DNA of 64,000 nt from Ornithinimicrobium cerasi. Its GTDB lineage: Bacteria; Actinomycetota; Actinomycetes; Actinomycetales; Dermatophilaceae. Below are positions 48,393 to 62,224 of this stretch, piece by piece. Every line of letters begins with the position of its first letter. Position 1 is the first letter of the stretch. The notes beneath the pieces are model-generated. The model did not search any database and was not told the origin of the DNA. It worked only from the letters and a program-made list of their open reading frames with translations. The stretch covers positions 1 to 64,000 of the forward strand of contig NZ_QZMN01000001.1 of assembly GCF_003702705.1 (NCBI RefSeq). Reading direction: 5' to 3'. A program made the position numbers and the translations under genes.

Positions 48393-49565
48393 TCAGCCTT
48401 CGCCGCGCTTCTCCGAGTCCGTCGCGTGCCGGAGGGCCAGCCGGGTCCACGCGCCGACGTAGATCCGGTCGTCCCGGTCGATCTCGACCCGCAGCCCGGG
48501 CTGGAGCGGCTCGGTGGGCAGCGGCTCACCCACGCGTCCCACGAACGTCCCGTTGCTGCTGCCGAGGTCCTCGATCCACCAGCGGCGGCCGTCGCTGGTC
48601 AGCTGCGCGTGTCGCCGGGACACGGCTGAGTCCGCACCCGCGTCCACCTCGGGACGGACCCCGAGGCTCCCGGACGGCCGCCCGATCAGCGCCGCGCTCC
48701 GGGTCAGCGGGACGATGTCGGGCACACCCGTGCTCGGGCACGCCTCCTCTGTCTGCTGGACGTCGTACCAGTCGGGGTCCACCCACATCTCGATGACCCA
48801 GGCGTCCGCGAGCGCACGCGAGGGTGGGGTATGCCGTGCAGCCTGCCCGCGCGGGGCCCCCGGCTGTGCAGGGGAGGGCTCGGGCTCGGGCTCGTGCTGC
48901 CCCTCGGGGGCGGGCTGCGGCTGCGGTACTGCATACGGCTCGGACTCCGCCTCGGACTCTGCCTCGGGCTCAGGCTCAGGCTCGGGCTCCGGCTCCGGCT
49001 CGGGCTCGGGCTCGGGCTCGGGCTCGGGCTCGGGCTCAGGCGCAGGCGCAGGCGCAGGCGCAGGCGCGGGCACCGGCTCCGCCTCGGGCTGGACCTCGGC
49101 ACCCTCGCCGGCAGGCTCGTCCGCCATCCCCATGATGTCCTCGATCACAAGCTCCTCCGGCGCCACGACCTCCTCGATCACAACCTCCGGCTCCGTGTCC
49201 TCCCCCGTCCCCGCCCCGTCCTCAGGCACGACCACGTCATCCCGCTCCACCGTGTCCGGGGCCACCTCCGGCTCGGACCCCATCGGCGGCGTCCCGGTCG
49301 TGAAGTCGTAGCCGCACGCCTCGCAGAACAGCGCGTCGGCGACGTTGACCCCACCGCAGAACGGGCAGACCTGAGTGGCCGAAGCGGGAGCACCCTGCTC
49401 CGGGAGGGTGAGGGAGGAGCCGGCGGACGGCATACCCGGGGCCTCGGACGACCCCGAGGAAGCCTCCGCGGACAGCCACGAGGACGGGGCACCGATCGGC
49501 GTGCCGCACGTGTCGCAGTAGTCGCTCGACTCGCTCTCGTGGCCCTCCGGGCAGCGCACCGTCAC
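48393..49565 (-). CDS. Two-zinc-ribbon + FHA-domain protein with Glu-Pro linker
   Basis: The product has 390 residues. Zinc ribbons at about 5-20 ('[17 protein letters not shown]') and 67-84 ('[19 protein letters not shown]') are followed by an acidic and Glu-Pro/Ala-Pro repeat linker (about 165-215). The C-terminal FHA domain carries 'LIGRPSG', '[30 protein letters not shown]', the residues that read phosphothreonine. It is the last gene of the kinase cluster, and its GTG overlaps the vWA stop (GTGA). It likely reads PknG-type phosphorylation. No GarA-like 'ETTS' phosphosite is visible. Confidence 0.9.
48890..49080. repeat. Glu-Pro / Ala-Pro coding low-complexity repeat
   Basis: GGCTCG and GGCGCA hexamers (+ strand) encode the EP/AP linker of the FHA protein. 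This is simple sequence and likely length-variable. Confidence 0.75.
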
Positions 49566-50848
49566 GAGGGCCGCACCCGCGTCGTCTTCGTCGAGGCGGT
49601 GTCGAGCTCCATCTCGTCGAGCTTGTCGACGTTGCGGCGCAACCGGACCCGGCCGGTCGAGGCGTCCTCGATGTCCACCACCCGGGACAGCCGTGACGTC
49701 GCAGCCTCGTCACCGGTCTCCCGGGCCAGCTGGACGGCCCGTCCCAGCTTGGACGTGGCGGTCGCGTCGTCGCCGATCGCCTTGGCGCGCAGGCCGTCCT
49801 GGATCGCCGAGGCCAGCTCGGTCTGGCCGGTGTAGTGCGCGACCTCGGGGCTTATCTGCGCGGTGAGCAGGCTGTCCGCGGACCACCGGGCCTTGACCAG
49901 GCCCTGCGCCCTCACGTCGGACCCGACGGCCAGCTGGACGCGCGCGGCCAGCTGCTCCTGGCCGATCGCCTTGGGCGCCAGGCGGACCGCCACGTGGTAG
50001 TCGCGGGTCTCGTCGCCCCACGCCCCCGTGTCGTAACCACCGGTGAGCGGGTTGACCTCCACCCGCCGCGCGGAGAGGTCCTCGAGCGTCGGGGACACCT
50101 GCTTGACGAACAGCACCTCTGCGCCCTGCGGCGCCCAGACGCGCAGCTGCGTGTCGCTGACGCCCCGGCCCATCGACTGCTGCATGAGCTGGGCGAAGTC
50201 CTCGGGCAACCCCTCCCAGGTGCGGATCAGGTCGACCGTGCCCATCAGCGCCTCGGCGATCCGCCGCACCTCCGCCACCTGCCAGGCGGCGCCGAGCCCA
50301 CGGCAGTCCACCTCGAACCGGCCGCGCACCTGCTCGATCGCCCACGACAGCTCGTCCGGGGTCTCGTGCTGGTTGGCGCCGTCGGTGAGCAGGATGGCGT
50401 GCCGCTTCGTCAGGCTGGGCACCGTGCCGAAGAGCTGGCCGGCGGCGAGCAGCCAACGGCCCATCGCCGTGCCGCCGCCGGGCGCGAGGCGCTGCAGCGA
50501 GCGCTTCGCCTCGAGGCGGGTCTGCGCCGACATGCGCGCCATCGCGGCGGACATCCCGTTGGGGTAGCACAGGGCAGCCTCGTGGTTGCCGGCGACGATC
50601 GCGAACCACACGCCGTCGACGATCTGGTCGAGGGCGGCGGACGCGGCGTAGGCGGCGGCCTGCACGCCCTGCACGTCCATCGACCCGGAGACGTCCACGA
50701 TGATGATCTCGCCCGCCTCGCCCGACGCCGAGCTCATCGGCGCCACCGTGCCGGCCCCGGTGCAGGTCACCGACACGATCGCGTGGACGTCCGTGCCGCC
50801 GTCGGGCAGGAACTCGTTCTGGTGGACGGTCGTCGTGAACTCAGCCAT
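49562..50848 (-). CDS. Cytoplasmic von Willebrand factor A domain protein
   Basis: The product has 428 residues. The vWA domain starts at about 45, with a full MIDAS: 'DVSGS' (Asp52, Ser54, Ser56), Thr127 in 'GGGTAMG' and Asp156 in 'LLTDGANQ'. A C-terminal ~200-residue beta/helical region ends in a Lys/Arg/Asp-rich tail. There is no signal or membrane helix, so it acts in the cytosol, unlike the secreted vWA at 41090. ATG 50848 overlaps the PP2C stop. It is probably a scaffold in the kinase pathway. Confidence 0.9.
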
Positions 50849-60978: not shown

Positions 60979-60979
60979 G

Positions 60980-62224
60980 TCAGCGACCGGCGGTGGGGGA
61001 GATGTCGCCCAGGTCCAGCGAGCCGCCGACGAGTCGGGCGTCGGTGCGCTTGGCGCGCTCGAGGTAGCTCTGCGACTTCACGACCTCGCCCTCGAGCACC
61101 CCGATCGTCTGCGCCATCGAGTCCAGGGCCTGGCTGCGGAAGGCGTCGATCGCGTCCATCGTCTCGTAGATGTTGGAGAACGCCGCCTGCAGCTGCTCCA
61201 GGCCCAGGGTGGAGGAGGCGGCCTGCTCCTGGATCTTGATGGAGTTGTCCCGCAGCATCTCCGAGGTCCGCTGGATCATGTCGGAGGTGGTGCTGTTGAG
61301 CGCGGTGATCTGGTCGAGGACGAGCCGCTGGTTGTTGAGCGCCTGCGCGACGAGCACCGCGGTGCGCAGCGCGCTGACCGTCGTCGTCGAGGCCCGGTCG
61401 ACACCCTTGATGAGCTCGATGTTGTTCTTCATGATGATGTCGATCGCCAGGTAGTTCTGGATCGACACGGCCAGCTGGGTGAGCAGGTCCTGGTGCTTCT
61501 GCCGCACGTAGAAGAGGACGTCCTCGCGCATCGCCCGGGCGTCCTCGGGGTTGGTCTCCTCCAGCTGCGCCACGTGGGCGGAGACCTTGGCGTCGAGCTG
61601 CTCGGCGATGTAGACGTACTGGTTGAGGCGGCCCATCGTGTCCCAGAGCTGCTGCTTCTCCATGTTGAGCGCGGCGTTGTCCTTGCTCAGCTCGTCCTGG
61701 CCGCTGCGCAGCGCGTGCAGGATGCCGTCGAGGTGCTTCTCCGCCGACTCGTACTTGCGGAAGTAGTCACGCAGCCGGTCGCCGAACGGGATCATCCCCA
61801 GCACCCGCTTGGTGCCCTTCGCCTGCGCAGGGTCGAGGTCCTCGACGGTGCGGCGCAGCTCCATGAGGGTCCGCCCGACCTTCGACTCCTTGGAGATCCC
61901 GCCCTCGTTGAGCGCGCGGACCGGCGACTTGAGCAGCCGGTTGGAGGTCTCGGCGGCGGTGCGGATCTCGGCGTCGCCCATGGTGCGCACGTCGGCGGCG
62001 CGCCGGGCGAACTCGGGCGACTTGGTCTCGGTCTGCGTCAGACCGTGGACGTAATCGGCGACCTTGGCGTCCAGCGCGGGCACGGCCTCGGGGGCGACCT
62101 GGGGAGCCATCTTGGGTGCGGCGGTCTCGGCGACGGGCTGCGGGGGAGCCGGCGCGGTCAGGACGAGGGGCTCCGCGGCGGCCAGCCCCTGGGGTGCGGC
62201 GAGCGGCTGGTGCTGGTCGGTCAT
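60980..62224 (-). CDS. telA: TelA / toxic-anion resistance family protein
   Basis: The product has 414 residues and is clearly TelA (PF05816-like): 'RLLKSPVRALNEGGISKESKVGRTLMELRRTVEDLDPAQ', 'IPFGDRLRDYFRKYESAEKHLDGILHALRSGQDELSKDNAALNMEKQQLWDTMGRLNQYVYIAEQLD', 'RQKHQDLLTQLAVSIQNYLAIDIIMKNNIELIKGVDRASTTTVSALRTAVLVAQAL'. These long helical cytosolic proteins are linked to tellurite resistance and cell-envelope stress; their mechanism is unknown. GAGGAGA precedes the ATG. It is the first gene of the cluster. No terC/terD gene is present in the window. Confidence 0.93.
   Translation of the reverse strand: MTDQHQPLAAPQGLAAAEPLVLTAPAPPQPVAETAAPKMAPQVAPEAVPALDAKVADYVHGLTQTETKSPEFARRAADVRTMGDAEIRTAAETSNRLLKSPVRALNEGGISKESKVGRTLMELRRTVEDLDPAQAKGTKRVLGMIPFGDRLRDYFRKYESAEKHLDGILHALRSGQDELSKDNAALNMEKQQLWDTMGRLNQYVYIAEQLDAKVSAHVAQLEETNPEDARAMREDVLFYVRQKHQDLLTQLAVSIQNYLAIDIIMKNNIELIKGVDRASTTTVSALRTAVLVAQALNNQRLVLDQITALNSTTSDMIQRTSEMLRDNSIKIQEQAASSTLGLEQLQAAFSNIYETMDAIDAFRSQALDSMAQTIGVLEGEVVKSQSYLERAKRTDARLVGGSLDLGDISPTAGR

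Follow-up and report, generated by a model that had tools for sequence, protein, structure and literature searches.

A conserved operon brings TelA and an AAA+ ATPase together with the GlnX-PknG sensor kinase in Ornithinimicrobium cerasi and related bacteria

Whether ten adjacent genes at positions 48393-62302 of a 64,000-nucleotide stretch of the Ornithinimicrobium cerasi genome (assembly GCF_003702705.1, contig NZ_QZMN01000001.1, positions 1 to 64,000, forward strand; hereafter the window) form one system, and which one, is the question raised by this locus. The initial annotation, made from the sequence alone, had seen in them two separate sets merged into a single cluster, the kinase PknG with its sensor and FHA reader being one and a TelA-XpaC pair the other, with envelope stress as the input. 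All ten genes lie on the minus strand and every open reading frame (ORF) translates without internal stops; in order of transcription they encode TelA, a small protein, an AAA+ ATPase, the membrane proteins m7 and m6, the protein u5 (the tenth gene, left unnamed in that annotation), PknG, a PP2C phosphatase, a vWA protein and a zinc-ribbon FHA protein. The successive junctions measure +1, -4, -4, +127, +49, -4, -4, -17 and -4 nt. Translation and junction distances thus bear out the original description of ten co-directional genes that overlap or lie 1 nt apart at seven of their nine boundaries.

Conservation was assessed on PknG orthologues taken from 99 order-level genomes and aligned, together with those from a scan of named genomes, limited to the best 80 of 581 relatives, which over-represents the loci most like the query. 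Iterated hidden Markov models (HMMs) of eight window proteins were run on all ORFs of the PknG loci, and a locus was counted only if it extended at least 7.6 kb upstream of PknG and 4.2 kb downstream, a filter by which 22 of the 80 named loci fell short and were left out. In 55 of the 58 loci with sufficient room, TelA, its small partner, the AAA+ ATPase, u5, PknG, PP2C, vWA and FHA genes are found in the same order on one strand (57 of 80 when the filter is not applied), which bears out a conserved set as opposed to random co-location. Complete loci, among the best 80 of 581, include those of Kineosporia, Kribbella, Nocardioides, Cellulomonas, Promicromonospora, Intrasporangium, Terrabacter and Propionibacteriaceae. 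Across the order, PknG_TPR was found in 13 of 99 genomes (the window genome included), and TelA was present in all 13 of these versus 22 of the 86 others (Fisher p 2.4e-7, calculated over genomes that are related and not independent).

The identity of this set is disclosed by the gap between the AAA+ and u5 genes, where most loci encode first a protein with four hydrophobic segments, two of them outer and two forming an inner pair, and then one of about 330 amino acids with a signal-like start. The former is GlnX, scoring 224-234 bits against NF058618 in loci L139 and L081 (under the cut-off of 250), and the latter is a family 3 solute-binding protein, GlnH (SBP_bac_3 in L139, L081 and L097). 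By HMM search, all 55 full loci have GlnX and 45 of them have GlnH, the latter always (45/45) between AAA+ and u5. The set is therefore the known nutrient-sensing operon GlnX-GlnH-PknG in enlarged form and not a merger of two separate sets; the standard operon reads TelA, partner, AAA+, GlnX, GlnH, u5, PknG, PP2C, vWA, FHA. Given the frequency of GlnH, the ancestral input is likely to have been amino acids bound by GlnH, as described in passages of PMC6069109 and PMC9769921, in place of the generic envelope stress proposed earlier. As in the system of mycobacteria and Corynebacterium glutamicum with its GarA/OdhI protein, PknG here carries rubredoxin and TPR domains, is accompanied by GlnX and usually an adjoining GlnH, and is combined with an FHA reader or target logic; unlike in that system, TelA, the small partner, AAA+, u5, PP2C, vWA and the zinc-ribbon FHA protein have been added, and the genus of the window lacks GlnH and usually has a second GlnX-like protein.

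Smaller loci exist within the same class. Four of them (L060-L063) have, of this set, only GlnX, GlnH and PknG within 20 kb, and three others, from large genomes (L057-L059), have GlnX, GlnH, a weak u5 (41-50 bits), PknG, PP2C, vWA and FHA, with TelA, partner and AAA+ not found within the 20 kb read. Such loci would fit a sensor-kinase core that was enlarged in two steps. In the literature searched, neither the extended operon nor TelA with PknG was found, a mention in Anantharaman et al. 2012 (on Ter systems) being possible; what is new here is the full extended set, its conservation with TelA and AAA+, and a genus-specific m6 with an EDTT tail in the usual place of GlnH.

Within the genus of the window, PknG_TPR was found in 20 of 32 genomes, and in 18 of 19 genus loci the nine cluster genes besides GlnH or m6 stand in order on one strand, the remaining one (L185) ending at a contig edge. 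The closest named relative, among the best 80 of 581, is Ornithinimicrobium sp. CNJ-824, with a PknG 77% identical; its PknG (L126) is split over two overlapping ORFs (10007-12390), through either assembly error or decay. The reported absence of GlnH holds for the window, and since GlnH was found in 0 of 19 genus loci it is a lineage trait, yet GlnH belongs to most of the named full clusters, being missing from only 10 of 55.

A simple hydrophobicity scan gave three segments each in m7 and m6, the fourth of each being read by eye from the translation, and both proteins are laid out as a single helix, a stretch of about 120-140 residues, two paired helices, a further stretch of about 120-135 residues and a last single helix. 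Against NF058618, m7 scores 22.3 bits, below the curated cut-off of 250; by profile-profile comparison (hhalign) it matches GlnX at 99.8% (E 6e-28, 362 columns, aligned through the C-terminal RLRDYR), and on this alignment m7 is a member of the GlnX family. For m6, which has no NCBIfam GlnX match, the same method gave a match of 84-87% with m7 (about 330 columns) and one of 62-63% with GlnX (85-86 columns), against at most 5.2% for controls (reversed profiles and 40 block-shuffled ones), so it is probably a diverged GlnX relative. The two GlnX-like proteins of the initial annotation are thus upheld for m7 and made probable for m6. A phmmer search of 140 records found m6 in the window and in 18 loci of its genus and nowhere else; the copies are 29-53% identical to that of the window.

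Domains of the ten proteins were called with Pfam and NCBIfam models at E up to 0.01, and motifs were counted as short text patterns on trimmed orthologues. PknG matches, in order and over the cut-offs, PF16919 (87-92 bits), PF00069 (100 bits) and PF16918 (148 bits), and its catalytic residues in the window read VVLK, CDFKPDN and IDLGG; among 80 orthologues, CDFKP(D/E)N is found in 78, VLK in 77, DLG or DMG after the loop in 78 and the rubredoxin pattern in 58. The phosphatase motifs are kept as well (NED in 75, GDSR in 74, (S/T)DGL in 73 and DN(I/V)T in 68 of 75 orthologues), as are the metal-ion-dependent adhesion site (MIDAS) DxSGSM of the vWA protein (68/70) and the Walker A and B patterns of the AAA+ protein (66/66). 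The FHA protein keeps SxNGT in 65 of 66 orthologues and S(R/V)(R/Q/K)H in 47, the latter count ranging from 29 to 61 of 66 with the wording of the pattern. Pattern counts place a ribbon of Cys pairs at the start of PknG (72/80), before the PP2C domain (53/75) and at two sites of the FHA protein (53/66 and 64/66); through these shared zinc ribbons, the writer, the eraser and the reader may all bind one partner. The unit is real, ordered and widely kept, with its catalytic motifs intact, and its gene set, order, domain content, conservation and the GlnX identity of m7 are the established part of our account.

TelA, which may start at 62224 (MTDQ) as plausibly as at 62302 (longest ORF), is conserved at its place in 55 of the 58 loci with room and also in L138, and the small partner separates TelA from AAA+ in all 57 complete loci. 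The label XpaC given earlier to this partner finds no support: at E up to 1, PF10112 matched none of 27 family members (mostly searched as trimmed matches), at E up to 10 it matched nothing in the entire genome, and five small proteins beside other TelA genes likewise had no Pfam XpaC match. The pair resembles the TelA-XpaC pair of Listeria (lmo1966-lmo1967) in that TelA stands beside a small protein, and differs from it in that this protein has no PF10112 match and an AAA+ ATPase is added. Disruption of the TelA-like lmo1967 is reported to have raised susceptibility to nisin 4-fold and to tellurite 2-fold (a passage of PMC12791056, citing Collins 2010), a phenotype which by analogy would fit an envelope role.

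The AAA+ protein scores 276 bits against SpoVK (TIGR02881), 252 against EccA (TIGR03922) and 220 against CbbX (TIGR02880), all below the equivalog cut-offs; by these scores it belongs to the same AAA group. In two genomes of one sister genus of the same family, TelA and AAA+ form an overlapping pair (685 and 655-659 bits; L148, 9549-12583, and L151, 8280-11089). The 20 kb read around each pair yielded none of the other cluster genes (E up to 1e-4), and PknG_TPR was found in neither genome. TelA and AAA+ can thus occur apart from the kinase part, and they probably work together.

The remaining protein, u5, has no Pfam match in the window copy, and 49 members gave stray weak matches, one or two members each (25 of 29 families listed); its AlphaFold2 model is that of a confident helical protein, with a predicted local distance difference test score (pLDDT) of 93.9. 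A u5-like gene (G402:C13:173666-174823, 48% to P0012) also occurs in a genus genome where PknG_TPR was not found.

What do these proteins do together? We favour, with a probability of roughly one half, an enlarged GlnX-GlnH-PknG operon in which PknG phosphorylates acceptors encoded in the operon itself, the FHA protein reads the mark, PP2C erases it, and TelA with AAA+ forms the output; here the direction of the signal, the substrates, the scaffold roles and the control of TelA and AAA+ are what we infer. The four-helix receptor GlnX (in the genus m7, usually with m6 and without GlnH) would signal from outside to PknG by way of its TPR domain, and active PknG would phosphorylate Thr-rich tails of proteins of the same operon. 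The mark would then be read by the zinc-ribbon FHA protein, as is done by GarA/OdhI, and taken off by the neighbouring PP2C, while u5 and the vWA protein would hold the parts together and the output would be a membrane-side TelA assembly, loaded or taken apart by its partner ATPase.

Three stretches are the best candidates for such tails: EDTT in m6, DFTTG in the FHA protein and LDTxSTKT in the vWA protein. In GarA, PknG phosphorylates the first Thr of ETTS (a passage of PMC5448819), and in OdhI its target is Thr14 (a passage of PMC9769921). The cytoplasmic N-terminal stretch of m6 reads PMxxxG...(V/L)EDTT in all 19 copies, one from the window and 18 from the 19 genus loci (L186 being without m6), and its EDTT resembles this target motif, making it a candidate acceptor. 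In the FHA protein, which scores 32 bits against the OdhI equivalog model (cut-off 200), DFTTG stands in place of ETTS, and TTG follows the ribbon in 59 of 66 orthologues; LDTxSTKT occurs within the last 25 residues of 67 of 70 vWA orthologues, and both of these conserved stretches sit outside the folded domains.

Several observations weigh against this account. Phosphorylation of operon proteins by PknG and control of TelA and AAA+ by PknG are proposals, and the structure models of u5 (no Foldseek match below E 0.34) and of TelA (very long helices at low confidence, pLDDT 68) gave no significant fold match. Two loci (L132 and L143) are without TelA, partner and AAA+, and that of Propionimicrobium lymphophilum (L138) keeps TelA and partner without AAA+; since three of 58 loci thus lack part of the set, TelA and AAA+ are not obligatory for the kinase part. 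Having been found in one genus only, m6 cannot be a general substrate, and Ornithinimicrobium sp. CNJ-824 (L126/L186) has neither GlnH nor m6. Finally, a separate GarA/OdhI homologue which keeps its second Thr is encoded outside the window in the same genome (L167), so that the classical control may still operate.

That classical control could even be the whole of it, PknG acting only as a metabolic switch on the separate GarA/OdhI protein and 2-oxoglutarate flux, and TelA, AAA+, vWA and the operon FHA protein merely sharing its promoter. In mycobacteria and C. glutamicum, PknG, GlnX and GlnH have an established function (passages of PMC6069109, PMC9769921 and PMC5448819), a GarA/OdhI-type match was obtained in 30 of 30 genomes searched (over the model cut-off in only four), and the N-terminal TT of GarA is kept in all 12 PknG_TPR-bearing order genomes outside the genus. 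We nevertheless consider this doubtful, as a phosphatase and a reader lie in the same operon, and as the GarA of the window genome reads DPATAR, with Ala at the Thr14 position, which weakens GarA as the sole target there. A clean loss of the TT acceptor in the genus was ruled out: in the motif DP(T/A/S)TAR of its PknG_TPR-bearing genomes the first position is 13 times Thr, four times Ala and three times Ser, that is, replaced in only 7 of 20, and the second Thr is kept in 20 of 20. A single Thr is also seen in GarA of three of four PknG_TPR-less genus genomes read, and the first Thr is missing in three of six PknG_TPR-less genomes from other genera of the family; the loss is therefore not tied to m6, and the altered residue is weak evidence of a changed target. 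In four GarA homologues (L193-L195 and L205), the TT motif is preceded by a Cys stretch resembling a zinc ribbon, an architecture that they share with the FHA protein of the operon.

A further reading, which we hold to be improbable, is that of a stress or anti-phage conflict system of the TerY-P kind, its vWA-PP2C-kinase triad controlling an effector. Here, too, these three activities are encoded by adjacent genes, as in TerY-P triads (a passage of PMC11090510), TelA belongs to a tellurite-linked family, an HNH-domain gene follows next downstream on the same strand, and PADLOC models match the kinase (up to 122 bits) and, more weakly, PP2C (33 bits) and AAA+ (up to 31 bits). These matches, however, cover common kinase, PP2C and AAA domains, and no nuclease or toxin domain was found by Pfam or NCBIfam among the ten proteins, though three have no family. 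The kinase, moreover, is PknG, with an N-terminal ribbon and rubredoxin and a C-terminal TPR domain, unlike the TerY-P kinase with its C-terminal zinc ribbon or OB fold (as given in part of PMC11090510); a GlnX or GlnX/GlnH sensor is present, and the gene order is kept across many named genera, unlike in defence islands as generally known.

The resemblance of the AAA+ protein to EccA (252 bits) could suggest part of a type VII-like secretion apparatus. This is highly implausible: the score lies below the EccA cut-off of 467 bits, and Pfam and NCBIfam searches (E up to 0.01) gave no EccC, EccB or WXG100 match for any of the ten proteins. A chance grouping of unrelated genes, for which nothing speaks beyond the variable extent of the set in distant relatives, is refuted by the order kept in those 55 of 58 loci.

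About 10 kb downstream of the main cluster lies a paralogous mini-operon with start/stop overlap, the genes of which score 64 bits (partner-like), 253 bits (u5-like) and 238 bits (FHA-like) against the family HMMs; of the 32 genus genomes, eight have u5-2 if the fragmented copy in G389 is included. This and other neighbouring genes are included in Table 1.

Table 1. Features of the ten-gene cluster, in order of transcription, and of neighbouring genes (positions within the window).
Feature	Position	Strand	Remarks
TelA (PF05816)	60980..62302	-	440 aa from longest start; Pfam 312 bits, E 4.8e-93, cut-off 30
Small TelA partner, 219 aa	60319..60978	-	not PF10112; sits between TelA and AAA+
AAA+ ATPase, SpoVK/EccA/CbbX group, own N-terminal part	58667..60322	-	AAA and AAA_lid_6
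m7, GlnX-family four-helix membrane protein	57321..58670	-	profile-profile match to GlnX
m6, probable second, diverged GlnX-like membrane protein, charged cytoplasmic tail	55607..57193	-	in the place of GlnH
DVEDTT codons in m6 (residues 39-44), candidate PknG acceptor motif	57062..57079	-	
u5, all-helical soluble protein, scaffold candidate	54427..55557	-	no Pfam match
PknG: N-terminal zinc ribbon, rubredoxin, kinase, TPR	52142..54430	-	PF16919, PF00069, PF16918
PknG rubredoxin domain	53918..54133	-	PF16919
PP2C phosphatase, N-terminal zinc ribbon	50841..52145	-	PF13672 (PP2C_2)
vWA protein, VWA_3 and VWA_3_C, MIDAS intact	49562..50857	-	PF13768, PF18571
Codons of conserved Thr-rich C-terminal tail (14 residues) of vWA protein	49565..49606	-	
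Double zinc ribbon and FHA reader (putative)	48393..49565	-	PF00498, PF12773
DFTTG codons (residues 87-91) of FHA protein, second acceptor candidate	49293..49307	-	after second zinc ribbon
HNH endonuclease-domain protein	46743-48275	-	26 bits; just downstream of FHA gene
Second Ser/Thr kinase	39890-41029	+	PF00069 125 bits; strand opposite mini-operon
Paralogous mini-operon	36199..38764	-	small TelA-partner-like 38135-38764, u5-like 37026-38138, FHA-like 36199-37029
Luciferase-like monooxygenase	34161-35153	-	155 bits

In conclusion, returning to the enlarged GlnX-GlnH-PknG operon, a bolder form of it can be sketched as a long shot, namely a nutrient-gated membrane-remodelling machine in which TelA would be a helical-hairpin membrane polymer and the AAA+ protein its disassembly motor (ESCRT-III/Vps4-like), switched by PknG and read by the FHA protein, with m6 of Ornithinimicrobium and its kin serving as both sensor and substrate in replacement of GlnH. 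The choice of PknG targets beyond GarA/OdhI and the role of TelA are two questions which this operon ties together. The tail of m6 provides a one-site prediction for a new PknG substrate, and as TelA is genetically locked to a kinase with a known sensor and chemistry, its role becomes testable in harmless soil actinobacteria through a defined input, namely amino acids and GlnH/GlnX.

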